A stretch of DNA of 23,117 bases from positions 1 through 23,117 of the IMG/VR virus record IMGVR_UViG_3300017756_000119; one strand, given 5' to 3'. The notes under the pieces were generated by a model, which saw nothing but the letters and a program-made list of their open reading frames with translations, was not told the origin of the DNA and ran no database searches. This document shows positions 7,976-23,117 of the stretch, one piece after another. The position numbers were made by a program, and so were the translations under genes. This DNA comes from a virus. The stretch's first letter is position 1, and the number at the start of each line of letters is the position of its first letter.

Positions 7976-10549
7976 ATGGCAGCAGCTGCACCAGTTATAA
8001 CAGTACTTTCATCAGCCGGTTGGCAAGGTATGTTAGCTAGGTTTGTATTATCAGTTGCAGTTTCATTTATTGCAAATAAATTATTTGCTCCAGATGTACC
8101 TGCAGGTGGTGGATCTTTAGATACAGCCCCAGATCCTGGAGTTAAACAAAGAATAGCTTCTAATCCTGATAATAAACTTCCTGTTATTTATGGACAAGGA
8201 AGAGTATTTGGTTCAATTACATTTGCAGATATAACATCTGATAATCAAACAATGGCATTTATTATATCTTTATGTGAAGGTCCTATTAATACTATTGGTA
8301 ATATTTGGTGGGATAATTTTCAATTAACATTAGATAGTAATGGTAATGTAACAAATGCAACAGATGTAAATGGTAATAGTGATGATTTTTTAAATGGTAA
8401 TTTAACAGTTAAAAAATTTCCAGCAGGAGGCAGATGTTCTCCTATGGAAACATTTTCAACTAAATGGAATACTAATGCTGCAAATAGAACAATGCCTAAT
8501 GTTGCATATTTATATGTGGAATTAAAATATAATAGAGATGAATCTGTAACTGGTTTGACTAGTAAATTAGGTGCAGAAGTTGAAGGTAAATTAGTTAGAA
8601 CTTTTACTGGTTCTACTTTATCAAATACTACATCATACTCAAATAATCCAGCTGAATGTTTATTAGATTATTTAACAAATAATATTTATGGATGTGGTAA
8701 TATAATTTCTGATACTGATGTAAATTTAGATTCATTTATTGCTCATAAAACATTTTGTGATACTTTAATTACACATACAGATAAAAATGGAAATAGTGTA
8801 CAAAATAAAAGATATACAACAAATGGATCTTTAAATACTAATGATGAAAGAGATTTAAATATTTCTGATTTAGTTATTTGTTCTCAAGGAATATTTGGTT
8901 ATCATTTAGGTAAATTTCAAATTACTTCTGATACTACAGGATCATCTGTAATGTCATTTACTTCTGATAATATGTATGGTGATTTTACAATAGTTAATGA
9001 TGGTTTTAATAGTTCATTAAATAAAATGGATATTTCATTTAATTCTTATGATGAAAGATATCAAGATGATCAAGTATTTTTAGAATTACCTAGTAATTTA
9101 AAAGCATATAATGAACCAGAATTAATTCAAAATACAAGATTAAAATTTATAAATAATAATGTTATGGCTCAAAGAGTTGGTAATGTTATTATTAAAAAAT
9201 CAAGAGATAATTTAATTATTTCATTTAGAACAGATACAAGAGCATTAGCATTACAAGTTACGGATATAATATCAGTTACAAATAATGTTTATGGTTTTTC
9301 AAGTAAATTATTTAAAATTAATTCTATTAGTGAAACTGAAATGGGAGATGAAGGTGTTTCAGGATATTTAATTACTGCTGAAGAATATAATGCAGATGCA
9401 TATACAGAAGAGGCATTAACAGAATTTTCAACAAGTCCTAATACAAATTTAGCTAATCCACGAAATTTTGGATCAATTACAGATTTAACATCAATTAGTA
9501 ATGATACAGATTCTACTACTCCATTTGTTCAATTAAGATGGACTGTACCAACTGGATTAACAGAAACATTTGAAATATATGTTGGAAATAACGTTAATAA
9601 TGCTATTGCTGATAGAGAATTTAATATTTCATTTAGAACATCAACAGGTCCATTTACTGAAGGTGCTACAATTACACATAAAGTATTTGATATAGATTTT
9701 ACAGATACATTGGTATTTTGGGTAAGACCAATAAACCAATTTGCAAGAGGGGCATTTTCTAATGCTTATAATTTTGGTGTATTTAGACCAGATTCTGGTG
9801 GCATTACTTCAGGAAATTCTGGTGTTATTATTGATCCTAATAATGTTAAAAATCCTTATGGTGTTGTAAACAGATTTACTCAAATTAAATATGGAGATAG
9901 TAATACAGGATCTAATATAAGAGATGATTTTACAGATATTAATGCTGTTCAACAAATAGGTTATGCTGGTTCAACAATTAATACAATTACTAGAACTGGT
10001 GGAACTGATGGTTCAGGATCTATTACATTTCCTACAAATTTTAATTCTGGTACAGCAACAACAGAAGAACAAGAATTAAGTTTTACAGGAACAAGAGGTA
10101 ATGTAACACAAAAAGAATTATTACATATTAATTTAGCTGATGATATACAAAATACTACAATTAGAAAAGCAATCAACAATGCTCAAGATTGGAATGCAAC
10201 AGGTTTTTTAGTTGCTGATAGTTCAAATAATAGTGTTAAAGTTAATGGAACTTTAGAATTATCTTCATTAGTAACAGGAGGTGTTTCAAATGGATTTGGA
10301 AGATCTGTATGTATAGGTACTTCAACTATATATGTAATGTCTAATACTGAATTATATTCATTTAGATTAATTACAAATACTTGGTCACATTATGCTACAA
10401 CAAATGCAGGTGGAGTTCAAAATTTTAATGTTTCTGCTATGGGAGATGATGTTTTACTTTATAATAGTTCAACTACTGAAGGTCAAATATGGAATTATTT
10501 CTTAATTCCTCCTACAACAGGAGCAACAGGGGGCGCACAGTTTAACTAA
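7976..10549 (+). CDS. Tail hub/tip protein (gpJ-like)
   Basis: An 857-residue protein that probably forms the central tail tip. Residues about 18-38 are hydrophobic. They are followed by a proline- and glycine-rich linker and LPVIYGQGRVFGSITFAD (68-85), a pattern typical of gpJ and related hub proteins ('PviYG..rv.G'). A fibronectin-like domain is likely at about 516-605 (LRWTVPTGLTETFEIYVG, then WVRPINQFARGAFSNAY). The last ~85 residues (GRSVCIGTSTIYVMSNTELY, TWSHYATTNAGG) look like a short blade-type repeat. The protein ends in ATGGAQFN, which is shared with two other proteins here. TAATG overlap with the next gene. Confidence 0.8.
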   Translation: MAAAAPVITVLSSAGWQGMLARFVLSVAVSFIANKLFAPDVPAGGGSLDTAPDPGVKQRIASNPDNKLPVIYGQGRVFGSITFADITSDNQTMAFIISLCEGPINTIGNIWWDNFQLTLDSNGNVTNATDVNGNSDDFLNGNLTVKKFPAGGRCSPMETFSTKWNTNAANRTMPNVAYLYVELKYNRDESVTGLTSKLGAEVEGKLVRTFTGSTLSNTTSYSNNPAECLLDYLTNNIYGCGNIISDTDVNLDSFIAHKTFCDTLITHTDKNGNSVQNKRYTTNGSLNTNDERDLNISDLVICSQGIFGYHLGKFQITSDTTGSSVMSFTSDNMYGDFTIVNDGFNSSLNKMDISFNSYDERYQDDQVFLELPSNLKAYNEPELIQNTRLKFINNNVMAQRVGNVIIKKSRDNLIISFRTDTRALALQVTDIISVTNNVYGFSSKLFKINSISETEMGDEGVSGYLITAEEYNADAYTEEALTEFSTSPNTNLANPRNFGSITDLTSISNDTDSTTPFVQLRWTVPTGLTETFEIYVGNNVNNAIADREFNISFRTSTGPFTEGATITHKVFDIDFTDTLVFWVRPINQFARGAFSNAYNFGVFRPDSGGITSGNSGVIIDPNNVKNPYGVVNRFTQIKYGDSNTGSNIRDDFTDINAVQQIGYAGSTINTITRTGGTDGSGSITFPTNFNSGTATTEEQELSFTGTRGNVTQKELLHINLADDIQNTTIRKAINNAQDWNATGFLVADSSNNSVKVNGTLELSSLVTGGVSNGFGRSVCIGTSTIYVMSNTELYSFRLITNTWSHYATTNAGGVQNFNVSAMGDDVLLYNSSTTEGQIWNYFLIPPTTGATGGAQFN

Positions 10550-11076
10550 TGGCAATATTAACAACATTATCAAATTTTGATATTAGCAACAATATAGTAG
10601 ATTCAAATGAAAATATTATTGTTTGGTATAATGGAACTAAAATAAAATATTATCACAGATTTGAACAAGTAACTACTGAAGTAGAAACTATTAGTGGTGT
10701 TATATCAATTAAACTTTTAAGTGATACTAATGTAAAAATAACTACAGCTTCAAAAGTTAGAGAATTAATTTTAACAAGGCCAAGTACAACAAATACATAT
10801 ACAATTACATTAGATAGTAATTATGATAATACAAATCCTGTAAGAAAATGGGAATTATCTTTAAATAATTATGGTACGGTTTTAACAGCTACTATGTCTT
10901 CAACTGTTGCAGAAACTGCTACAGCTGTAGCTTCAGCAATTAATAATTTAAATAATTTCAGTGCTAGTGCAAACAACAATATAATTACTTATACTGATTC
11001 AACTTCACAAATTGTACAAACAAGTTCAATTGATTATAATGATTTTATTGCAACTGGTGGTGCACAATTTAACTAA
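10549..11076 (+). CDS. Tail-tip accessory/fibre protein with ATGGAQFN end
   Basis: A 175-residue protein, beta-rich and asparagine- and threonine-rich, with no recognised family. The middle (TNTYTITLDSNYDNTNP, then an LTATMSSTVAETATAVASAI helix and NNNIITYTDSTSQI) looks like the module seen repeatedly in the next, larger protein: strand, 'T-A-x-x-A-S-A-I-N', strand. It ends in ATGGAQFN like its upstream neighbour and the collagen-like fibre. It is coupled to the hub gene by TAATG and so is likely made with it. Confidence 0.6.
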   Translation: MAILTTLSNFDISNNIVDSNENIIVWYNGTKIKYYHRFEQVTTEVETISGVISIKLLSDTNVKITTASKVRELILTRPSTTNTYTITLDSNYDNTNPVRKWELSLNNYGTVLTATMSSTVAETATAVASAINNLNNFSASANNNIITYTDSTSQIVQTSSIDYNDFIATGGAQFN

Positions 11077-11091
11077 TAAAAGGAATTAAAA

Positions 11092-13230
11092 ATGGCAATT
11101 AGCTCTGTTTATGCAAATGCAGGAACTTGGGCAGGATCTGATATTATTACGGCTACTATGAGAAATAGTTTAAATAATATTCATCCTATAAGTACTACTT
11201 CTGTTATTGCAGTAAATACAACAAATACTCAAGTATATACTGATGATGGAAATGGTACATATGTTTCTCAACAAACTTATTCAGATACAGGTGATATTTT
11301 TGGTTTTGGAAAAGAATTTATTTTAAATAATAATTTATATATTTATAACAGCCCTGAACCAAGTGCAAATACAAGATGGAATACAGGTACAAATACTAAA
11401 TATTCAATAAGCTTAGGATCATTAGGTTATATAACTAATAATACATTTTCAAATAATATTGGTGTTATTGATGCATTAAATGAAATTAGAACAGCAGTAT
11501 TAGGTTTAAATATAAGTGGATTATCAGTTTCATTACCTGCTTATGTATCAGATATAAATCCTGATAGTGGTCTTGTTGATTTTTCAGGTTATGGTATAGT
11601 AATTAATACAGGTACTGCTACAAATGAAGCTACATCTTTTACAATTAATGACGTAGCTGGTGATGGTTCAAATATTATTTATAATTATGAATTTGAAACA
11701 GATGGTGCTGGAACTGGAGGATCAACAACTATATCTTTAACTGAACCTGATGGTACAGGAACTTATACATTAAATGTTGCTGCTGATCTTGAAACAGATG
11801 ATCAATCAGCTACTATTGGAGCAGATTTAATTGCATTAGTAAATAATAATACAGAATCTCCTAATAATTATACTGCTACATATGATAATACTAATAAAAA
11901 AATTACATTTACATCAACAAATACATTTGATTCAGTTCCTAGTGAATTATGGACTGCTACAGTAAATAATAATTCTGTTAGTGGTACTAATGCAGGAAAT
12001 ATAGTTTTTGGAACATCTACAATATCAAGATCGGGAACATTAGGATCAACATATAATATTACTGCTCCTAATTTATTTACTAAAACTGTAAATGGACTAC
12101 CACTATTTAGTGAAGTTACATTTACTGGTGGAACACAACAATCATTTTCAAATAATTTAAATGCTACTGCGGCTGCTCTTGAATTTAAAAATGCATTAAA
12201 TGCTTCTTTAAATGGCTTTATGACTGCAACAATAGATTCAGGTGATTCAAAAATAGTAAATTATACTACAACAATTCAAGATGATATTGGATTAGATTTT
12301 ACTTTTTCTAATTCAAATATTACAAAAAGTATTACACAAGGAAGTTTAGGTACTACTCAAACAAATATTAATAATTCTGGTAAAACAAATATTCAAGTAT
12401 TTAAACCAGGAAGTTCTAGTGCTGATTATAATAAAAGTTTTGTTGGTTTTGTTCCAACATTACCTGGTGCTGTAAATACAATAGCTGATGTAATAGAAAA
12501 TATTAATACAAATATAACTGATTGGACTATTGAAAAAGATCAACCAGTTGCTAATCAAATTAGATTTACTTCAATTGCTGATGCACATTTTAGTGATTTA
12601 TATAGATTAACTGTAATTAATAATTCAGCTAGTGGAACAACAGTAGGTAATTTTTCAACAGGAGTAGGTAATGCTACAATTACTCAAGCAGGTTCATCTG
12701 TTCCAAATTATTATGGTTTAAGATCTGTAATTTTAGCTAATAAAGATGTATTTTCAAATACTGCATCCGATTATTCTTGGTTTGAAACTACTAAAAATAG
12801 TTTAAATACTATATTACCAAGTTATAAAGTAGATACTATAAAAACTCCAGAATTTAAATTTGATGGATTTTCAAATAGTGCTGCTGCAATATCTGATGGA
12901 TATTTTGCTATAACAGCTAATTCTAATGGTCAATATGTTATTGATACTGATACACTTACTTCTAGTGAAATATCTAATATACCAGTTGATCAATCTAATA
13001 ATACAATAAATGGATCTGAAATGGTCTATTTTTCTACTAAATTATATTTAGCATATAGAGTAAATAATGACAGTGAAATTACTGCTTTATCACTAGGAGC
13101 TTCAAATTCTGGTGCAACAATTTATACAAATCCAGGAACTACTTATTCCATAACAGATAGTAATGGTGATGCTTTAATTGCATCTTATATCTATAAATGG
13201 AGTGGTACAGCTTGGATTAAAGAAACTTAA
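11092..13230 (+). CDS. Large repetitive tail-fibre protein
   Basis: A 712-residue protein, low in charge and rich in N, T, S and G, as in phage fibres. Repeats occur inside: a segment near residues 285-318 (TATVNNNSVSGTNAGN, then STISRSGT) is echoed near 502-535 (LTVINNSASGTTVGN, then ATITQAGS), each after an 'S-[LY]-[WR]' strand. Around them lie units like the one in the gene upstream. The end reads YIYKWSGTAWIKET, a Y-x-W-S-G-[ST]-A motif also seen in the collagen-like fibre ([12 protein letters not shown]). It has an AAGGA box at 11080-11084. Unlike both flanking fibre proteins it lacks ATGGAQFN. Specific function not known. Confidence 0.6.
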   Translation: MAISSVYANAGTWAGSDIITATMRNSLNNIHPISTTSVIAVNTTNTQVYTDDGNGTYVSQQTYSDTGDIFGFGKEFILNNNLYIYNSPEPSANTRWNTGTNTKYSISLGSLGYITNNTFSNNIGVIDALNEIRTAVLGLNISGLSVSLPAYVSDINPDSGLVDFSGYGIVINTGTATNEATSFTINDVAGDGSNIIYNYEFETDGAGTGGSTTISLTEPDGTGTYTLNVAADLETDDQSATIGADLIALVNNNTESPNNYTATYDNTNKKITFTSTNTFDSVPSELWTATVNNNSVSGTNAGNIVFGTSTISRSGTLGSTYNITAPNLFTKTVNGLPLFSEVTFTGGTQQSFSNNLNATAAALEFKNALNASLNGFMTATIDSGDSKIVNYTTTIQDDIGLDFTFSNSNITKSITQGSLGTTQTNINNSGKTNIQVFKPGSSSADYNKSFVGFVPTLPGAVNTIADVIENINTNITDWTIEKDQPVANQIRFTSIADAHFSDLYRLTVINNSASGTTVGNFSTGVGNATITQAGSSVPNYYGLRSVILANKDVFSNTASDYSWFETTKNSLNTILPSYKVDTIKTPEFKFDGFSNSAAAISDGYFAITANSNGQYVIDTDTLTSSEISNIPVDQSNNTINGSEMVYFSTKLYLAYRVNNDSEITALSLGASNSGATIYTNPGTTYSITDSNGDALIASYIYKWSGTAWIKET

Positions 13231-13237
13231 TAAACAA

Positions 13238-13263
13238 AAATATATGTCCATAGATATATATTT
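13238..13263 (+). terminator. AT-rich hairpin between two fibre genes
   Basis: An 11-pair stem (AAATATATGTC with GATATATATTT, one G.U pair) closed by a CATA loop, in the 60-base gap after the large fibre gene. No U-tract follows. It could be a weak terminator, a message-stabilising end or a processing site. It is followed by an AGGAG box for the next gene. Confidence 0.45.
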
Positions 13264-13290
13264 ACTCATAACTAACCTACAGGAGATAAT

Positions 13291-13740
13291 ATGAGAATAT
13301 CAAATATACAAAACTATTTAGGAGGAGCAGATAATATTATTGCTCGAGAAGTAGCTGAGGGTAATTCGTTTTTAATGTCAATAGAAGATGGTACTATAGA
13401 TTTTAGTGCTTCATCTACTGCTTTTGATATAAAAGCTGATTTATTTGAAGCAACCGTTACAAGAAAAAGAGGATCTATTGTAATTGATTCATTAACTGCA
13501 GTTGGAGGTTCAAACCAACATACTTATACAAAAGCTGAATTAATTCATAATACTGGTACTGCTGGTAAATTTGAATTATTAGTACCTGACACATTATTAT
13601 CAGATCAAGGAAATTATAGTGCTACCCCTGATGATGCATCGCCATATATTGTGGTTATGAAGGTACAATGGGCACAGGGTAATCCTGTAGTAAAAAATTC
13701 AATTAGGTTTGTATTTGTAATAAGATATCAACCTAAGTAA
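13291..13740 (+). CDS. Putative baseplate/fibre protein of unknown family
   Basis: A 149-residue protein with alternating strands: a start [12 protein letters not shown], then [37 protein letters not shown] and later [17 protein letters not shown], ending in [12 protein letters not shown]. The pattern resembles the N-terminal beta-sandwich of baseplate upper proteins that hold receptor-binding fibres, but I cannot assign a family. It has a strong AGGAG box within the 13280s and lies just before the collagen-like fibre, so an anchoring role is plausible (inference). Confidence 0.55.
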
Positions 13741-13754
13741 AGGAATAAAATAAT

Positions 13755-15944
13755 ATGACAATTAAAATAGATGGAACAACTTCAACTATAACTGTTTCAA
13801 AACAGACAGGTCCAACTGGCCCACAAGGTCCGCAAGGTCCAACTGGCCCACAAGGTCCACAAGGTGATAAAGGTGATACAGGTTTAACAGGACAAACAGG
13901 ACCAACTGGTAATCAAGATTCACAAGGTACTCAAGGTATTCAAGGAATTGTTGGCCCAACAGGCCCACAAGGTGCTACAGGTCCGCAGGGGCCTTCAGGT
14001 ACAGCAAATACTAGTGAAGTAAATGGGCTTATTGATACACGTGTAAATAAATCATTTGTTGATGCTTTAAATGTTGATGCAGATACTTTAGATGGTGTTA
14101 ATAGTACAGCATTTGAACAAATTTCTAATAAAAATCAAAATGGTGGATATGCAGGTTTAGATAGTGCTGGTAAAGTTGCAACTGCACAATTACCTAGTTA
14201 TGTAGATGATGTAGAGGAATATGCTAATTTTGCTTCATTTCCAGGTACAGGTGAAACAGGTAAAATATATATTGCTATTGATACAGGAGATGTTTATAGA
14301 TGGTCAGGAAGTGCATATGTACAAATAAATGACGCTGTAACTTCTGCTGATCAAGCAACAAAATTAGCAACTGCTAGAAATATTACTTTAACAGGTCCAG
14401 TAACTGGAACTGCTAGTTTTGATGGTACTGCTAATGCTGGTATTTCAACTACATTAGATTTATCTTCTAAATCAACTTCTGATTTATCTGAGGGATCTAA
14501 TAAATATTATACTGATGCTAGAGTTCAAACAAAAATTGATGCAAATTCAGCAGGATTTATTACTGCAAGTTCAAGTGATACTTTAACAAATAAACAAGGT
14601 AATATATCTCAATTTACAAATGATAGTAATTATTTAACTTCAGTACCAGCTCAAACTTTTACTTCATTAACAGGTAAGCCAACAACAGTTGCAGGTTATG
14701 GAATAACTGATGCTGTAACAGCAACAAGTACAACAGCTTTTACAAATAAATCAGGTAATATATCTCAATGGACTAATGATGCTGGTTATATAACAAGTGA
14801 AACTGATAGTCAAACATTAACTTTTAGTGATCCAAATTTATCAATATCAGGTGGTAATTCTGTAAATTTAAGTGCATTAACACCAACATCTTTGGCATTT
14901 AGTGCAATTACTTCAAAACCAACAACAATAGCTGGTTATGGAATTACAGATGCTTTAGCTATAGGTACAAGTGCTACAACTGCAATGGCAGGTAATACAA
15001 CATTTACTTTTTCAGAAATTACAAGTAAACCAACTACATTAGCTGGATATGGTATTACAGACGGATATACTAATGCTAATGCTGTATCGGCTGTTACTGC
15101 ATCTGATTTAGATATGGGTGGTAATAAAGTTTTATTTGCTAATATGTATTCTAATGAAGCAAGTTTGCCAAGTGCTACTACTTATCATGGTATGTTTGCT
15201 CATGTTCATGGAACAGGTAAAGGTTATTTTGCACATGGTGGTAATTGGATTAAATTAATAGATGAAACAAGTTCTGATACAGATGATTTAACAGAGGGAT
15301 CTAGTAATTTATATTATACTGATGCAAGAGTTGATGCTAGAATAGCTGCTGGAGGTTCTAATCCAACAATTAGTTCTATTTCTCCAACTACAATAGGTAA
15401 TTCTGCATCTACAATTACAGTTACAGGATCTAATTTTGATGTTGGTTCGCAAGTAGAATTTATAAATACTTCTACAGGTATTTGGTATCCTGCTACAACA
15501 ATTGTATATAATAATAGTACATCATTAACTGTTACAATTACTTTATCTGTGGATGCTCAATATAGAATGAGGGTTGAAAATGGAACTGGTAAAGCAGTTA
15601 TATCAAGTGCTAATATTTTAACTGTATCTGATGCACCTACATGGTCAACAAGTGCAGGTAGTTTAGGTTCTTTTGCTGGAAACTTTTCTGGTACAATTGC
15701 AACTCTTTCTGCTTCTTCAGATAGTGCTGTAACATTTAGTGAAGTTGGATCTAATTTATCCGGTGCTAATGTTACTTTATCTTCTGCTGGTGTTTTAGCT
15801 ACTACAGACTTTGGTGGTTCATCATCAAGTCCAACAACTTATAATTTTACAATTAGAGTAACCGATGCTGAAAATCAAACTGCTGATCGTAGTTTTAGTT
15901 TTGCTTCAACATATGGTGCTACAGGAGGCGCGCAGTTTAACTAA
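13755..15944 (+). CDS. Collagen-like tail fibre with IPT/TIG domain
   Basis: A 729-residue fibre. Residues about 18-83 are a run of G-x-y triplets ([11 protein letters not shown]..., one break at NQDSQG) that should form a collagen-type triple helix. They are followed by repeated segments: [14 protein letters not shown] three times (14659-15070 region), [15 protein letters not shown] twice, and [15 protein letters not shown] / [16 protein letters not shown], which are common in phage fibres. An IPT/TIG-type Ig domain lies at about 534-625 ([20 protein letters not shown]), then a second Ig-like end domain. The last residues are [14 protein letters not shown] box at 13741. It probably binds the host surface. 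Confidence 0.75.
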
Positions 15945-16024
15945 TGAATAAATTTAAAAAAGGAATAAAGAATATAATGAAAAAAATAATAATAATAATA
16001 AATCAAATATTGGGGGTTAAATAA
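15944..16024 (+). CDS. 26-residue peptide ORF between two fibre genes
   Basis: A short [23 protein letters not shown] and six more residues, cationic at the start with a run of five isoleucines. Its ATG overlaps the stop of the collagen-like gene by one base and its stop overlaps the ATG of the next gene by one base, the same TAATG coupling used elsewhere in this operon. An AGGA at 15960 could serve an internal ATG at 15977. It may be a real mini-protein, perhaps membrane-active, or only a coupling leader. A GGGGG box for the next gene lies inside it (about 16011-16015). Confidence 0.4.
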   Translation: MNKFKKGIKNIMKKIIIIINQILGVK

Positions 16025-17376
16025 TGGCTGGTACAAGATTAACAAGAAGTTATGGAGCAGGAGTAACTGGAAATAGAAGCAAATGGACATTTTCTGGTTG
16101 GATAAAAAGAAGTAATGAATTTGGATCAGAACAAGGTATATTAACAGTTTATAGTAATAGTTCTTATTATACAAGTATAGATATTACATCAGAGGATCAA
16201 ATTAATTTCTTTGATTTATATAATGGTGGTATTAATGGAAGAGTTAGAGCAAATGCTAGAAATAGAGATTGTACTGGTTGGACACATATAGTTTGTACTT
16301 TTGATAGAAATAACGCAACTTCTGGAGACAAAATTAGAATGTGGATTAACGGTGTAAGAATAACTGGAGCTTTAGCATCATTAGAAACTATGCCAGCAAA
16401 CGCAACTACTTTAAATTCAGATAGTCAAACACTTGAAATTGGTGCAAAAAATAATGCTAGTTATTTTAATGGACAAATGAGTCATTTACATTTTTGTGAT
16501 GGTTATGCTTATGAAGCATCAGATTTTGGTGGTTTTGATAGTACAACTGGAGAATGGTCTATAAACACTTCTCCTAGTGTAACTTATGGAACACAAGGTT
16601 GGTTTATTTTAAAAGATGGTAATTCAGTAACAGATGAATCTACTAATACTAATAATTTTACAGTTTCTAATGGTACACTTACAAAAACAGAAGATAATCC
16701 AAGTAATGTTTTTGCTACAATAGATAGACATAATGAATGTACTGCATCAGGTTTTTTTCTTGAATATGGAAATACAAGAACAACTACTTCTGATGGAGGT
16801 CAATTTGGAGGCTCAAGTAATTTAGGTGCTAAAACTGGTAAATATTATTTTGAAATTAAATTTACATCGGGAACTACAACTTGGGGAAATATAAATTTTG
16901 TATCATCTAGTAATGCTAGAGAAACTGCAAGACAAAATGTTCATGCAAATCAATTAAGTGCATCATTTCCTAGTTTTTGTTATGAATTTGATGGTAATGT
17001 TTATAAAGATAGTACAAGTACAGTGGCTAATTATGGTAGTTATGCTGTTGGAGATATTATTATGATTGCTGCAGATTTAGATAATCAATATTGTTATTTT
17101 GGAAGAAATGGAACATGGGGTAACTCATGTGATCCAACATCTGGTGCAACAGGAACAGGTGGTGCTTCTATGTCTGCAAATCCAGATTTTTGGCATCTTG
17201 CTTTAGGTGACAGGAATTCATCTGGTTATAATGTTTATGATATAAATTTTGGTAATGGTTACTTCGGAACAACAGCAGTAGCTAGTGCAGGAACTAACGC
17301 AAGCGGTAACGGAATATTTGAATATGACGTACCCACAGGCTATACGGCTTTATCTACGAAAGGACTTAACTTATAA
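16024..17376 (+). CDS. LamG/SPRY-like receptor-binding protein
   Basis: A 450-residue protein with two lectin-like beta-sandwiches. The first (about 18-165) has the LamG or concanavalin pattern: WTFSGWIKRSNEFGSEQGI, then GWTHIVCTFDRN and IRMWINGVR, then LEIGAKN. The second (about 250-430) is SPRY-like: TGKYYFEIKFTSGTTTWGNI, YAVGDIIMIAADLDNQYCY with FGRNGTWGNSC, then NFGNGYF. The end (FEYDVPTGYTALSTKGLNL) is typical of tail proteins in marine phages. It probably binds cell-surface sugars or proteins. Good box and TAATG at the start, TAATG at the end. Confidence 0.7.
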   Translation: MAGTRLTRSYGAGVTGNRSKWTFSGWIKRSNEFGSEQGILTVYSNSSYYTSIDITSEDQINFFDLYNGGINGRVRANARNRDCTGWTHIVCTFDRNNATSGDKIRMWINGVRITGALASLETMPANATTLNSDSQTLEIGAKNNASYFNGQMSHLHFCDGYAYEASDFGGFDSTTGEWSINTSPSVTYGTQGWFILKDGNSVTDESTNTNNFTVSNGTLTKTEDNPSNVFATIDRHNECTASGFFLEYGNTRTTTSDGGQFGGSSNLGAKTGKYYFEIKFTSGTTTWGNINFVSSSNARETARQNVHANQLSASFPSFCYEFDGNVYKDSTSTVANYGSYAVGDIIMIAADLDNQYCYFGRNGTWGNSCDPTSGATGTGGASMSANPDFWHLALGDRNSSGYNVYDINFGNGYFGTTAVASAGTNASGNGIFEYDVPTGYTALSTKGLNL

Positions 17377-18413
17377 TGGCTTATACAACAATTAATAAAA
17401 ATACAGATCACTTTAATACAGTAACTTATACGGGAAATGGTGGAACAAATGCAGTAACAGGTGTTGGATTTGCACCCGATTTCACTTGGATTAAAAGTAG
17501 ATCACACGCTGCGAATCATTATTTATATGATGCTGTAAGAGGTGTAGAAAATAAAATTGCTTGTAATACTACTGCTGCTGAAATAGATATGGGTACTTCA
17601 GGTTTAAATACTTTTGGTACAGATGGATTTACAGTTGGTAATGATACAGATGAAAATGCTAATAGCTCTACTTATGTGTCTTGGAACTGGAAAGCAAATG
17701 GTGCAGGAAGTGCTAATACAGATGGAGATACAAACTCAACTGTAAGTGTAAATACTACAGCAGGTTTTAGTATTGTTTCATGGACAGGTACAGGATCAGC
17801 TACGACAGTCGGTCATGGACTTGGATCAGCGCCAGAATTGATTATGTTAAAAAATAGAACTGGAGTTTATGGTTGGCAAATGTATTTTAAAGATTTAGGA
17901 AAAAATAAATACATAGCATATAATGGTACAGATGCAGTAGCAACTTCTACACAATCTTGGAATGATACAGCTCCAACTAATAGTGTTTTTTCTGTTGATG
18001 GTGATTCAAATAATAAAAGTGGACAAAATATAATTGCATATTGTTTTAAAGAAAAAACTGGTTATAGCAAATTTGGAACTTATATTGGTAACGGAAATGA
18101 TAAAGGCACTATGGTTTACACTGGGTTTAAGCCAACTTTTATTACAATGAAAAGAACAAGTCCTTCTGGAGAAAACTTTTATATGTATGATAATAAAAGA
18201 CCAACTTTTTTTAACCCAAATAAAAGTATAATAGTAGGTAGTCAAAATTTAGTTGAATATAATAATTTTGGAGATATTGATTTTTTAGCAAATGGTTTTA
18301 AAATTAAAACTACTAATAATAGTGCTAATAATTCTGGGCAAACTTATGTTTACATAGCGTTCGGACAAAGTATTGTAGGTTCAAATAACGTACCTGCTGT
18401 TACGGCATTTTAA
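17376..18413 (+). CDS. DUF7483-type tail-fibre protein
   Basis: A 345-residue protein with two similar domains. The first (about 1-110) has GVGFAPDFTWIKSRSHAANH, LYDAVRGVENK, FGTDGFTVGN and VSWNWKANG. The second (about 125-340) has FSIVSWTGTGSATTVGHGLG, SAPELIMLKNRTGVYGWQMY, a 'GFKPTFITMKRTSP' segment and FLANGFKIKTTNN. This repeated pattern is widespread in environmental marine phage fibre proteins (DUF7483-like, named from memory). It ends in YVYIAFGQSIVGSNNVPA. Likely a distal receptor-binding piece working with the LamG/SPRY protein. Confidence 0.65.
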   Translation: MAYTTINKNTDHFNTVTYTGNGGTNAVTGVGFAPDFTWIKSRSHAANHYLYDAVRGVENKIACNTTAAEIDMGTSGLNTFGTDGFTVGNDTDENANSSTYVSWNWKANGAGSANTDGDTNSTVSVNTTAGFSIVSWTGTGSATTVGHGLGSAPELIMLKNRTGVYGWQMYFKDLGKNKYIAYNGTDAVATSTQSWNDTAPTNSVFSVDGDSNNKSGQNIIAYCFKEKTGYSKFGTYIGNGNDKGTMVYTGFKPTFITMKRTSPSGENFYMYDNKRPTFFNPNKSIIVGSQNLVEYNNFGDIDFLANGFKIKTTNNSANNSGQTYVYIAFGQSIVGSNNVPAVTAF

Positions 18414-19038: not shown

Positions 19039-19347
19039 TTATACTTTATACATTGTATATTTAACAGTTAATTCCTCACCTTTTTTAATTAGTCTATTCG
19101 TGACTAAATGAGTTTCTTCATGATATATACAATCTTCCCTTTCTTTAATACAATTTGGTTTATTACTATGATTAATAAATCCACCTAATGGTGTTCTAAT
19201 AGTATGATTAAATTCAGTTATAAAATGCATCATACCTAAATTAGTATTTTTCTTTATATCTTTAGTAGCAAATAATCCTAATCCTTCAATGTTTGATTTT
19301 TTTATTGTTAATGAATTAGGTAATGGTTTATACTTTCTTGTTTTCAT
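19039..19347 (-). CDS. Compact SET-domain protein (putative lysine methyltransferase)
   Basis: About 102 residues, close to the bare viral SET length. The three SET signatures are present: NIEGLGLFATKDI (residues ~19-31, S-adenosylmethionine site), GGFINHSNKPNC (~55-66, the NHS...PNC core) and GEELTVKYTMY (~90-100, with the usual catalytic-site tyrosine near 97). The ATG at 19347 has an AAAGAAAG box and the SET fold begins right after. A GTG at 19449 would add 34 residues, but that stretch has GC-rich codons unlike the phage and no SET pattern, so I reject it. A phage SET protein would methylate a host or phage protein; the target is unknown. Confidence 0.8.
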   Translation of the reverse strand: MKTRKYKPLPNSLTIKKSNIEGLGLFATKDIKKNTNLGMMHFITEFNHTIRTPLGGFINHSNKPNCIKEREDCIYHEETHLVTNRLIKKGEELTVKYTMYKV

Positions 19348-19516
19348 ATATCTTTCTTTATTTATGGGCAGTTTAAACAGGTTACCCAGCTGCTTCGGTT
19401 TACTAGTAGTGATGTAGGCCGAGAGAGGAAAAAGCCTATACTCATCCACCTACCATTGTCTGTTAGCCATTGCCTAATAGGTCTTACTTGTGGATCTAAC
19501 TTCTAACCGAATTCTA
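19348..19516 (-). other. GC-rich intergenic island with possible RNA structure
   Basis: The gap between the helicase stop and the SET start. Bases 19381-19500 hold 54 G or C in 120 (45%), against 15 in the 60 bases just before (25%). Read leftward as RNA it can form an outer stem (19505-19511 with 19394-19400, seven pairs), a hairpin (19491-19495 and 19478-19481 with 19444-19452) and another (19434-19438 with 19415-19419). It also carries an 11-base match (TAAACTGCCCA) to the region before the small basic gene at 3606-3616. Role unknown: structured leader, small RNA or remnant of other DNA. Confidence 0.4.
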
Positions 19517-21151
19517 TTATAATACTTCTTTGAAAGCAATATTACTTATATTGTAATTTAATCTTCCAGTTTCAGCATTATATGTAGCTTGACCACAATG
19601 ACCAGTATCTCCAGTAAATCTACTTTTTAAAACAGCAAATTTAACTGCATTACGTTCTGCTTTTTCAGCTGCCATCATGTTTCTACTAAAGGCTACAATA
19701 TCAAAACTAATTTGTTTAATACTTCCAGATCCCTTTATATCATCTAATGATGCCATACGGCCTTCCTCAAATGATTTATTATCCCCATGACTTTTTCTCA
19801 AATGAGATATTAAAGTTAAATGGATATTATATCTTTTAACAATTTTTAATAATGAACTCATAACCTTATCAATTGCTTCATTACCTGATAAACCTTCTGA
19901 GCCTTCAGATACAGCAATTGTTATGTGATCTAAAATTAAATATTGACAACCTAATGCAGCCAAATATTCAATCCTAGATAATAAAGAACTATCTTGAACA
20001 GATCCTTGATGATCTAATAATATTAATCTTTCATCACCAAATACTTTTTCAAAACCTTTTCTAGCTTCTTCCTCATTACAATCTTCTGGTGTTCTAATAT
20101 TTTTATTTATAGACATACCAATTAATCTAGTAGCAGTATCACCAATAGATTCTTCTAATGATATTAAACCTATTTTAGCATCAGATTGTTCTAATAAATT
20201 TAATATTGTTTCTTTAACAACAGTTGATTTACCTGAACCTGTACCAGATGTAAATAAAGTAATTTCACCTAATCTCATTCCTAACAATTTATCATTTAAA
20301 CCTTTTAAACAATCAGGATATGGAACAGATTTAGTATTAGATCTTTCCTTAAATGCCTGCCATATTTTTTCACCGGATACAAAATTATCTGGTTTATATG
20401 ATTTAGCTGACCAAACATCTTGTAAATATTCATCAATTAAACCTTTTTCTAAAGCCTCATTAGCATCTTTATGAATGCTATTTACAATATGAGCTTTACC
20501 TGGTTTAATAATATGTGCAACATCTTTTGCTGCCTCAATACCATATTCATCATTATCAAATGCCAAGAATACTTTATCGTATTTATTTACAAATTCTAAA
20601 TTAGATGCGATATTTCTTCTAGCACTTTGGGCTCCATTAACAATTGATACAACATCAAATTGTGCTTTAGCTTTTGTAAGCATTTCTAATAATGATAAAC
20701 AATCTATTTCACCTTCAGTAATAACTAAGTTTTTTCTTTTACCACTATTACATTGATTAAATAATTCAGGTACTTCAGCTTTACCAATAACTCTAAAATC
20801 TTTGGTAGCAACTATTCTTTTCTTATATGCTTTAATTTTTTTATTTACTGTTATGGGATAATAATGACTTGTAATATTTCTTTTATCATCATATTCTATT
20901 TTAACTCCAGCATTATATAAAACCTTTTTGGATATACCTCTAAATGTATCTATTGGTAATTGACTTATTTCATCCAAAGTTAATTGTGATTGTACAACGT
21001 TAAATTCAATATTTGTATCTTCTGTACCAGATGCAGCACTTTTTCTGCAACTAAAACAATATGTAGATCCATCAGAATAAACAGCATTTGCATCTGATGA
21101 TCCACAAGACTCACAGCTTGTATGTTTTATAAATGTTGTGTTTTTACCCAT
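19517..21151 (-). CDS. T7 gp4-like primase-helicase
   Basis: A 544-residue replication protein. Order of domains: a zinc-binding N-terminus (C13, C16, C32, C35 in CESC and CFSC), a Toprim-type primase core with TEGEID (E146, E148) and FDND (about D199, D201), then a hexameric DnaB/RecA-type helicase with Walker A SGTGSGKST (about 302-310, K308), an SLEES motif, Walker B LILDHI (about 405-410) and, near 511, SRFTGDTG, where the arginine finger is expected. It unwinds DNA and primes the lagging strand. The start at 21151 has a GAGGA box, and it overlaps the HNH-like gene by eight bases. All key motifs look intact. Confidence 0.92.
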   Translation of the reverse strand: MGKNTTFIKHTSCESCGSSDANAVYSDGSTYCFSCRKSAASGTEDTNIEFNVVQSQLTLDEISQLPIDTFRGISKKVLYNAGVKIEYDDKRNITSHYYPITVNKKIKAYKKRIVATKDFRVIGKAEVPELFNQCNSGKRKNLVITEGEIDCLSLLEMLTKAKAQFDVVSIVNGAQSARRNIASNLEFVNKYDKVFLAFDNDEYGIEAAKDVAHIIKPGKAHIVNSIHKDANEALEKGLIDEYLQDVWSAKSYKPDNFVSGEKIWQAFKERSNTKSVPYPDCLKGLNDKLLGMRLGEITLFTSGTGSGKSTVVKETILNLLEQSDAKIGLISLEESIGDTATRLIGMSINKNIRTPEDCNEEEARKGFEKVFGDERLILLDHQGSVQDSSLLSRIEYLAALGCQYLILDHITIAVSEGSEGLSGNEAIDKVMSSLLKIVKRYNIHLTLISHLRKSHGDNKSFEEGRMASLDDIKGSGSIKQISFDIVAFSRNMMAAEKAERNAVKFAVLKSRFTGDTGHCGQATYNAETGRLNYNISNIAFKEVL

Positions 21152-21521
21152 ATATTTCCTCTTCTGTTATTTTATATCTTTTTGTAGCCCATTTAACAAA
21201 CCTTTTAATATCTCTTCCAGTTGCAGAAGTCATCATAAGGTTTGCTATATTTGTTACAAATTCTACATTACCTCTTACATATCCTAATCTAGGATCTATT
21301 CTATCTAATGTTGGACTTAATTTACCTAAACTAATATTTGAAACTTTCATTGTGTACCCAAGAATTGGACATATTGAATTTTTAGGATAAATAGATTCCA
21401 AATAATTAGATGTTAAATTAAAAGGTAAATTTTTTATTCTAGCTCGTCTTTTAGAGGCCTTGCAAGCAGTAACAGCAATACCTCTAATAGATTGATTATA
21501 TTTTTTTTGATTGAATGCCAT
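21144..21521 (-). CDS. HNH-like (beta-beta-alpha) nuclease
   Basis: A 125-residue protein, basic at the start (ACKASKRRARIK), with a CPILGYTM turn (~51) and LSPTLDRIDPRLGYVRGNVEF (~69-88, here split: LSPTLDRIDPR then LGYVRGNVEF) followed by VTNIANLMM. The pattern 'CP..G....P.LDRId...GYv.gNv..v...aN' is a known phage HNH-like subfamily in which the usual first histidine is replaced. It likely nicks or resolves DNA and sits where T7-like phages carry their endonuclease. It overlaps the exonuclease by 26 bases and the helicase by 8. An upstream GGAG box lies about 13 bases before the ATG. Confidence 0.75.
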   Translation of the reverse strand: MAFNQKKYNQSIRGIAVTACKASKRRARIKNLPFNLTSNYLESIYPKNSICPILGYTMKVSNISLGKLSPTLDRIDPRLGYVRGNVEFVTNIANLMMTSATGRDIKRFVKWATKRYKITEEEIYG

Positions 21522-22242
21522 TTAAATAATTTCTCCAGTATTCTATTGACCATCTTGAATGATCTTTAAAGTCTTTAATAAGATATAACATTGTACCCAT
21601 TACATTTAATCTTGATAAAAAATCTTCTGGATAATGTTTTTTATAAGCTTTAATAACAGCTTCAAACTGTTCATTTAAACTTTTGTCTTTTAATATCTTA
21701 TTTGCTTTAACTGGACCAACACCTTCAATACCTGGTATATTATCTACAGCATCACCTGTTAATAATTGTTGATGAAAAAATTCTATTCCTTCAATTTTAG
21801 ATACAGCTGATAAATTATTATATAATAAATTATAAAATAAACCACCAATAGTTTTCCAATCCTTGTCTAAAGTTATAAGCATATATAATTGTTTATTTTT
21901 AATATATTTAAATGCTTCAACAGAGGCTGTATCATCAGCTTCATAATTTTTAACCATTATTGGTTTATAATTTCTAACAATATGATCACGACATTCTAAA
22001 TAATTTTCAGGTTTTTCTCTTCTTTTACCTTTATACTTTAAAAAATCTTGTTTTATTTCTTTTCTAAAATTACCACCACCGGAAATATGTAAACTATATT
22101 CATCACAAGCAGTATTCATTTTTACTTCTTCATATATATCATCAAATGTTTTTCTTACATCTAGATTATCCTTTATGGCTTTATTACAGGCTCTATATAT
22201 TAATACATCACCATCAACAATACCAATTATTTTATTGTTCAT
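21496..22242 (-). CDS. 5'-3' exonuclease (FEN/T7 gp6-like)
   Basis: A 248-residue metal-dependent nuclease. Signatures in order: VDGDVLIYRA (D10, D12), a KGKRREKPENY basic patch, NYEADDTAS (E101, D103, D104), TLDKDW (D126, D128), LLTGDAVDNIPG (D164, D167) followed by the helix-hairpin-helix GIEGVGPVKANKIL. These are the conserved acidic sites and DNA-binding helix of FEN-type nucleases. It would degrade host DNA and remove RNA primers. Starts after an AAGGT box, and the upstream cupin-like gene stops one base before it, so the two are tightly linked. Confidence 0.88.
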   Translation of the reverse strand: MNNKIIGIVDGDVLIYRACNKAIKDNLDVRKTFDDIYEEVKMNTACDEYSLHISGGGNFRKEIKQDFLKYKGKRREKPENYLECRDHIVRNYKPIMVKNYEADDTASVEAFKYIKNKQLYMLITLDKDWKTIGGLFYNLLYNNLSAVSKIEGIEFFHQQLLTGDAVDNIPGIEGVGPVKANKILKDKSLNEQFEAVIKAYKKHYPEDFLSRLNVMGTMLYLIKDFKDHSRWSIEYWRNYLNGIQSKKI

Positions 22243-22243
22243 T

Positions 22244-22729
22244 TTAATACCTTTTTAATTGCTCTTTGTGTTTATCACCTAATATATCACCTGTCCAATC
22301 TTCTGAAACATGAGATGGTTTTATATTATTTAACCATTTTTGAATTGATATAAATGCACCACCTTTATTTGATGATTGACCACCATGTAATTCATTTTGT
22401 TTAATTCTTAATGTCCAATTTGAGCACCTGGGCATATTATTTCTTTCTAATAATGCCATTTGTTTATTTATTATTGTTTTACCTTTATGAGTAAATTCCA
22501 TACCCCACAAAAACATTTCATAACTATCTATATTAGGATGTGAATGTTCTTTAATTATAACATTTGGTTCACAAATAAATAATTGAACTTGAAATTGTCC
22601 TTTTCTATAAATAGTTACTCCTGATATACCATCAATAAACATTATAGGATTATTATAAGGTACATTAATTAAATTATTTTTTAAGTACCAATTTTTAAAT
22701 TCCTTTAAATCATCATTAATGGGTTTCAT
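22244..22729 (-). CDS. Cupin-like protein in the replication operon
   Basis: A 161-residue protein. I chose the ATG at 22729 because an AAGGAA box precedes it; a GTG at 22756 would add nine residues. Both lie inside the DNA polymerase's end in another frame. The core has a metal-binding cupin-type motif, IIKEHSHPNIDSYEMFLWG (H-x-H, E after six residues, then G), and a second strand with NELHGGQSSNKGGAFISIQ. That gives the usual three His and one Glu candidates. The rest is strand-rich. It could be a dioxygenase-like or sugar- or nucleotide-binding protein; the substrate is not known. Confidence 0.65.
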   Translation of the reverse strand: MKPINDDLKEFKNWYLKNNLINVPYNNPIMFIDGISGVTIYRKGQFQVQLFICEPNVIIKEHSHPNIDSYEMFLWGMEFTHKGKTIINKQMALLERNNMPRCSNWTLRIKQNELHGGQSSNKGGAFISIQKWLNNIKPSHVSEDWTGDILGDKHKEQLKRY

Positions 22730-23117
22730 ACCAGTTATTTCCTTCTTTAGCATCACCTGCCATTTGAATATTTAAATTTAATTCCTTAGTAATAAAATCA
22801 CCAAATGAATAAGATAATATTTCTTTTACTCTTTTAATGTTTTCTGGTTTAGTTTGAACTTGAACTTCATCATGAATTAAACCTAACATATCAACATTTA
22901 AATTTTCTTCTTTAAACATTTTAAAAGCATTAACAACAGCTGATTTAACTGTAATTGCTTCATATGCTTGTAATAAATAATTTAATAATTTAAATGAAGA
23001 TTCAGCATATATTTTTCTTCCATCTAATGCTGGAATAAAACCCATCTTATCTTTATTTTGTGTTGTATAAAAAAATTTATTTAATCTATTATTTAATTCT
23101 TTTAATCCAGGAAAGGC
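22716..23117 (-). CDS. Family A DNA polymerase (T7 gp5-like), C-terminal part
   Basis: The frame is open to the right edge, so only the last 133 residues are seen. It contains LIHDEVQVQTKPENIKRVKE, the HDE motif of family A palm domains (motif C, T7 'HDE'), preceded by a helix with YEAITVKSAVVNAFKM. The end, GDAKEGNNWYETH, matches the characteristic C-terminus of T7-type polymerases. It copies the phage genome and would work with the gp4-like helicase and the exonuclease encoded after it. It overlaps the cupin-like gene, which begins inside its final codons. Confidence 0.9.
   Translation of the reverse strand, partial: AFPGLKELNNRLNKFFYTTQNKDKMGFIPALDGRKIYAESSFKLLNYLLQAYEAITVKSAVVNAFKMFKEENLNVDMLGLIHDEVQVQTKPENIKRVKEILSYSFGDFITKELNLNIQMAGDAKEGNNWYETH

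Follow-up and report, generated by a model that had tools for sequence, protein, structure and literature searches.

A shared C-terminal octapeptide on three phage tail proteins as a candidate plug for a LamG/SPRY head protein

We analysed an IMG/VR virus record (IMGVR_UViG_3300017756_000119) of a marine phage along its 23,117 bases, hereafter the window, in which three tail proteins end in the same octapeptide, ATGGAQFN, hereafter the tag. The carriers of the tag are a gpJ-like hub, a small protein and a collagen-like fibre, and downstream of the fibre lie genes for a LamG/SPRY protein, which we call the head, and for a DUF7483 protein. The features of this region, among which the tag copies and the short open reading frame (ORF) at 15944–16024 were located by direct reading, are as follows.

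7976–10549, forward strand: gpJ-like tail hub of 857 residues with the tag at its end (phrog_31, central tail fiber J, E = 1.9e-36)
10523–10546, forward strand: first copy of the tag, at the end of the hub, with its TAA overlapping the ATG of the next gene as TAATG
10549–11076, forward strand: protein of 175 residues with the tag at its end and no Pfam or PHROG match
11050–11073, forward strand: second copy of the tag (ATGGAQFN), at the end of the 175-residue protein, with no overlap with the next start
13755–15944, forward strand: collagen-like fibre of 729 residues (Pfam Collagen)
15918–15941, forward strand: third copy of the tag (ATGGAQFN), at the C-terminus of the collagen-like fibre
15944–16024, forward strand: ORF of 26 codons between the fibre and LamG genes, with a TAATG overlap at both ends
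16024–17376, forward strand: LamG/SPRY protein of 450 residues, beginning MAGTRLTRS (Laminin_G_3, PF13385), the putative receiver of the tag
17376–18413, forward strand: DUF7483 protein of 345 residues (PF24299, E = 2.6e-113; 378.9 bits, above the cutoff of 27)

In all three carriers the octapeptide stands directly before TAA. A preliminary description of this DNA had reported the common end on three otherwise different tail proteins, and its coordinates proved exact; once the tag is cut off, no relationship is seen among the families of the hub, the small protein and the fibre (hhalign probability of 0.2–1.4%), and the possibility that the tag is merely the end of one homologous domain common to the carriers was rejected. 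Direct reading also bore out that six of the eight tag codons vary among the three copies, solely through silent changes at third bases, while TTT AAC TAA is constant, and that the 712-, 450- and 345-residue proteins of the window have other C-termini, the 450-residue one being the LamG/SPRY head and thus the putative partner of the tag. The further claim that the peptide and not the DNA is kept holds in the main, as different codons encode the same peptide, but wobble choice within the tag is not neutral and varies with whether or not the tag's stop runs into the start of the next gene. Where the stop overlaps that start as TAATG, GGA or GGG was used in 67 of 71 cases, CAG in 42 of 71 and AAC in 69 of 71, compared with 7, 2 and 10 of 19, respectively, where there is no such overlap; in the rest of these genes, CAG and AAC have a background of 7 and 19% of codons. 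Because codon choice differs with TAATG overlap, we conclude that the peptide is retained without an overlap, yet that third bases also respond to the neighbouring start. A diversity-generating retroelement was considered as a cause of the conserved 3′ end, and no reverse transcriptase was found among the window ORFs examined.

Scanning IMG/VR with GGNGGNGCNCARTTYAAYTAA, a DNA pattern for GGAQFN followed by a stop, returned at least 118 stretches, and the scan for GGGQFN followed by a stop returned 120. All of the GGAQFN-stop matches listed are in-frame C-termini, and they belong to three kinds of protein, namely hubs, small proteins and fibres with a common Ig-like end domain. Because every listed match is the in-frame C-terminus of an ORF, a chance origin of the shared tag is excluded. 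In ORFs longer than 100 residues from fetched loci, GG[AG]QFN was C-terminal in 307 of 307 instances and internal in none, a count for which the loci had partly been selected by a pattern containing the stop codon; scattering of the motif at random places, which would have spoken against a tag, was thus not observed. The conserved core of the tag is A-x-G-[GS]-[AG]-Q-F-N, in which the T position is variable, and the residues just before it vary as well.

The tag occurs widely among marine phages, mostly those of Pelagibacter type; in the pelagiphage isolates HTVC204P, HTVC011P, HTVC103P, HTVC121P, HTVC200P, Greip and Skadi-4, one or two fibres end in it. Hub homologues in related loci have GG[AG]QFN as their C-terminus. 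The tail tip J of Kolga EXVC016S shares 53% identity with the window hub over 69%, and neither the tag nor a LamG/SPRY gene was found among the Kolga tail proteins examined. The 175-residue protein has relatives in 44 IMG/VR loci, with at least 65% identity where aligned, and none was found in GenBank phages; all complete C-termini of this family consist of the tag or of GGGQFN, GSAQFN or SGAQFN. The C-terminal region of the fibre (residues 552–729) is common to pelagiphage tail fibres, with up to 73% match. A candidate fourth gene ending in QFN, upstream of the hub, was rejected, as CAATTCAATTAA matches there end only short out-of-frame stretches. In the literature searched, we found no mention of GGAQFN or DUF7483 and no description of the tag.

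The head encoded at 16024–17376 matches Laminin_G_3 above the family cutoff (E = 3.1e-10; 40.8 bits against 27.6) over positions 16–141 of the 151 in the profile. Its LamG N-terminus is incomplete: the first LamG segment is missing, and alignment to relatives that possess this segment begins after it. Foldseek matches indicate a LamG/pentraxin-type fold. SPRY (PF00622) scores 18.1 bits in the window head, below the cutoff of 26.3, and exceeds the cutoff in several relatives, while phrog_27411 and phrog_19943 were the only PHROG matches. After tagged fibres, the gene order is LamG/SPRY protein followed by DUF7483 protein. In most tag-less phages, DUF7483 is fused behind LamG/SPRY in one protein, and in MEP301, CRP-811, SS120-1 and ctXG6705 the chain comprising LamG, SPRY and DUF7483 has an extra N-terminal segment ending in SLRF[NR], with no tagged protein upstream. 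The LamG/SPRY C-terminus ALSTKGLNL and the start of the DUF7483 protein, in the window (17376–18413) and in relatives, correspond to one unbroken stretch in the fused proteins (ALNTANLPDP...), and this boundary marks another fission of a gene within the module.

We collected homologues of the head via patterns inside the head protein, without using the tag, and distinguished them by their N-termini. Self-stranded heads carry their own segment (...[RN]-S-[LV]-R-[FL]-[NR]...) ahead of a YLxRTP strand, whereas in split heads this segment is absent and the gene starts with MASTYLTRT. All 74 split heads were directly preceded by an ORF with a tag-type peptide at its end, as were none of the 66 heads with their own segment. 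Tags of 59 split heads fitted a strict QFN pattern by script, and the other 15 were variants judged by eye, including GSGGFN, GGATFN, NAGQFN, NAGGFC, GSMGFN, NSMSFN, NSGRFN, GGVLFP and GSGGFQ. The class was changed for two rows: L289 had been read from upstream of its start codon, which gave an artefact, and in L380 the pattern had missed the own segment. In the lineage of the window, the hub, small protein and fibre have the tag wherever seen, and the downstream LamG, where in view, is of the split type. An association of the tag with separation of DUF7483, instead of with the LamG segment, was rejected, since self-stranded heads without a DUF7483 fusion are also tag-less.

Split and self-stranded heads form one family (hhalign E = 9e-72), with an alignment that starts exactly at the split proteins' own start; when compared with solved structures, the split-head profile matched 4qvs only. 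On a tree of the LamG core, head type changed at least four times, and two of these changes are forced by supported branches. HTVC202P and HTVC204P have LamG cores that are 82.5% identical and opposite formats: HTVC202P has its own segment, VANSLRFDDG, and no.FN C-terminus in 18000–32226, the 14-kb stretch examined, whereas HTVC204P has a split head and a fibre ending in GGGQFN. Differences between the two cluster at the start and in the last strand, which reads DGYIAEFVLID in the former and HGSMSYFHFID in the latter. This occurrence of one core in both formats, together with the scattering of tag type on the LamG-core tree (27 changes among 93 rows), lends indirect support to the early suggestion that fibres are swapped like modules.

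Several loci showed further arrangements of these genes. HTVC103P (20936–29366) carries two full fibre–LamG/SPRY–DUF7483 modules in one phage, with the tag variants GGGQFN and NNGGQFN. In HTVC011P (NC_020482.1, 30274–32575), the annotated tail fibre stops early and the tagged Ig-like C-terminus runs on in another frame to the LamG gene, which suggests a frameshift in the genome or in the record. In MedDCM-OCT-S37-C6 (5215–6714), a protein encoded two genes ahead of a self-stranded LamG fusion ends in a repeat, TIDGGSFN, that superficially resembles a tag. Some split heads are in frame with the fibre behind a single stop, as in NSGQFN-stop-DNIMANSYL; at L144, L264, L158, L210, L299 and other loci of this kind, the one stop is mostly TAG, and a conserved D-N-I or E-Y-I spacer precedes the ATG. 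This class could reflect either amber read-through or a Shine-Dalgarno sequence (TAGGA).

We hypothesize that the LamG/SPRY head at 16024–17376 docks onto a plug at the C-terminus of its carriers, ATGGAQFN, whose core is A-x-G-G-[AG]-Q-F-N-COOH. In tag-less relatives, the head carries its own first segment ahead of the YLxRTP strand; in tagged phages, that segment is gone from the head and the tag of an upstream protein would most likely take its place in trans, as the missing first strand of the LamG jelly roll, next to the last strand and to the first of those that remain. With the tag at the end of hub, small protein and fibre alike, one head could sit on all three carriers, and the hub and small protein would then hold further head copies. 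Docking of the tag to the head is probable and well supported by comparison of these genomes, and the early proposal of a docking tag with one common partner fits this evidence, with the head now named as the candidate; nothing we found supports a chaperone as that partner. Strand donation is the most economical mechanism for such docking, and we give it about an even chance of being the one used. Taken as a whole, a plug for the head that most likely acts by donating the missing strand is our best explanation, and we consider it slightly better than evenly supported. Broader still, the module may be a natural split lectin in which the first LamG beta-strand moved to the C-termini of unrelated tail proteins, yielding a universal socket and plug with heads exchangeable among fibre, small protein and hub; this formulation is tentative and falls somewhat short of an even chance.

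Sequence fit and covariation are consistent with strand donation. When tag hexamers were compared with the own segment in a fixed register, the area under the curve was 0.965 against 1702 other C-termini, with GGAQFN in the top 1.1% and NSIQFN, NSGRFN and NSMSFN above all 1702 controls; without the last two residues, the F-N pair, it was only 0.77. Between self-stranded and split heads, no LamG strand diverges more than the last one (Jensen-Shannon divergence of 0.33, compared with 0.05–0.22 for the others), in which E changes to H at one site. Within split heads, the contrast between GG-type and NS-type tags reached 8.0 standard deviations over shuffles in the last strand, 4.1 in the first and at most 2.7 in the others. 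In LamG/laminin G and pentraxin folds, the N- and C-terminal strands are neighbours.

Other results weigh against this reading or against parts of it. The sorting of 74 split from 66 self-stranded heads is inflated by kinship of the rows, so that a Fisher test on it is descriptive only, and the variants among the tags were identified post hoc. A gapped profile hidden Markov model of self-stranded heads was uninformative (+0.57 bits for tag-prefixed heads, +0.66 bits for controls), the linker after LamG also covaries with tag type, and a tree-aware covariation test on independent pairs had only two supported pairs. The profile of self-stranded heads matched no PDB chain and thus offered no solved LamG strand for the own segment. 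Finally, AlphaFold2 was applied to two natural read-through fusions with tag and LamG in one chain, L107 (stop read as Q) and L264. LamG was modelled confidently, with mean predicted local distance difference test scores of 80.5 and 88.7, respectively, but in both cis fusions the tag was left as a low-confidence coil (∼38–52) and was not inserted as a strand of the acceptor sheet. We do not regard this result as decisive, because only a minority of the alignment rows carried the tag, the fusions were in cis and no self-stranded head was modelled for comparison.

The AlphaFold2 models, which put no tag in the LamG sheet, would also suit docking to the same head, or to its DUF7483 partner, at another site such as the SPRY loop groove. 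The SPRY domains of eukaryotic SPSB proteins are a precedent, as they recognise short linear motifs; SPRY is clear in several relatives, and the LamG/SPRY and DUF7483 genes come after tagged fibres. However, tag-less phages also have SPRY and DUF7483, the tag goes together with the absence of the first LamG segment, and tag type covaries with strands of LamG. We consider docking at such a site unlikely. The tag could instead be a receptor-binding or trimer-capping tip peptide with no phage partner, given that gpJ proteins and fibres often bind receptors through their C-terminal tips, as established for lambda J, and that all tag copies are C-terminal. This explanation, which we regard as improbable, does not account for the way in which tag and first LamG segment sort (74/74 versus 0/66), and the tag is nearly invariant whereas receptor tips are usually variable.

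The conserved sequence might also be a junction at the DNA level, either a recombination seam or a ribosome-binding element (GGAGGA...TAATG) that serves the next gene, with the peptide as a by-product. In favour of this, the junction DNA is highly alike across loci, and third-base choice differs according to whether or not a copy overlaps the next start. The small-protein copy and many hub copies nevertheless keep the peptide by other codons and with no overlapping start, and neither the hub nor the small protein adjoins the LamG gene; such copies largely refute a DNA-level junction, to which we assign little probability. Stop read-through or frameshifting might covalently link fibre and head in some molecules, making the tag a stop context, and the fibre class in frame with the head, with its single, mostly TAG stop and conserved DNI or EYI spacer, points in that direction. 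At most loci, however, the head is in another frame (TAATG) and no plausible slippery site was seen on reading; moreover, the hub and small protein are followed by unrelated genes, and TAGGA could act as a Shine-Dalgarno sequence. We regard this last explanation as very improbable.

The 26-codon ORF at 15944–16024 may be a relay for translational coupling, and loci L054 and L116 have a gap between fibre and LamG genes similar to this one. On the reverse strand, the window encodes a SET-domain protein of 136 residues (19039–19449; PF00856, E = 3.5e-11), which is unusual for a phage, and replication genes (19517–23045), comprising a Toprim/DnaB primase-helicase, a 5′-3′ exonuclease and the end of a family A DNA polymerase.

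Pelagiphages infect one of the most abundant bacteria of the ocean, and their receptor-binding proteins are mostly unassigned. If the tag is a plug for the head, it would provide a testable attachment rule for the recognition proteins of these phages, by which heads and carriers could be found from sequence alone, and would explain the movement of the LamG module between podoviruses and siphoviruses. It would also supply a natural short C-terminal docking peptide.

In host-recognition islands of marine phages, lectin-like and tail-fibre genes constitute a variable recognition module (PMC3909814), which the genes described here resemble; a C-terminal tag or split LamG is not described in the passages of that study consulted. 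The proposed mechanism is akin to donor-strand complementation and exchange in chaperone-usher pili and TasA fibres (PMC9674648), in which a strand-deficient subunit is completed by the peptide of another subunit. The candidate donor peptide belongs to another subunit of the same phage, adjacent to each of the 74 split heads, and split heads lack an N-terminal segment, putatively a strand, that their relatives hold in cis. In the window, by contrast, a LamG jelly roll would accept the strand and the donor would be a C-terminal tag on tail proteins of unrelated families, with an insertion that is proposed here and that two fold predictions did not place. The detachable adhesin gp38 of T-even phages and S16 is likewise encoded directly downstream of its fibre, gp37, and is considered to be mounted on the C-terminal end of that fibre. 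The same order of fibre and head is found here at the level of genes, but the window head has a LamG/SPRY fold, one tag is common to several carriers, and the PHROG matches of the head do not include the gp38 family. In cyano-, roseo- and methylophages (SS120-1, CRP-811 and MEP301), self-stranded proteins unite the same three domains, LamG, SPRY and DUF7483, in a single chain, with the first segment in cis and the upstream tag absent. In SpyTag/SpyCatcher and other engineered split domains, a short terminal peptide completes a beta domain; the system proposed for the window would be a natural and non-covalent counterpart, borne by several carriers.

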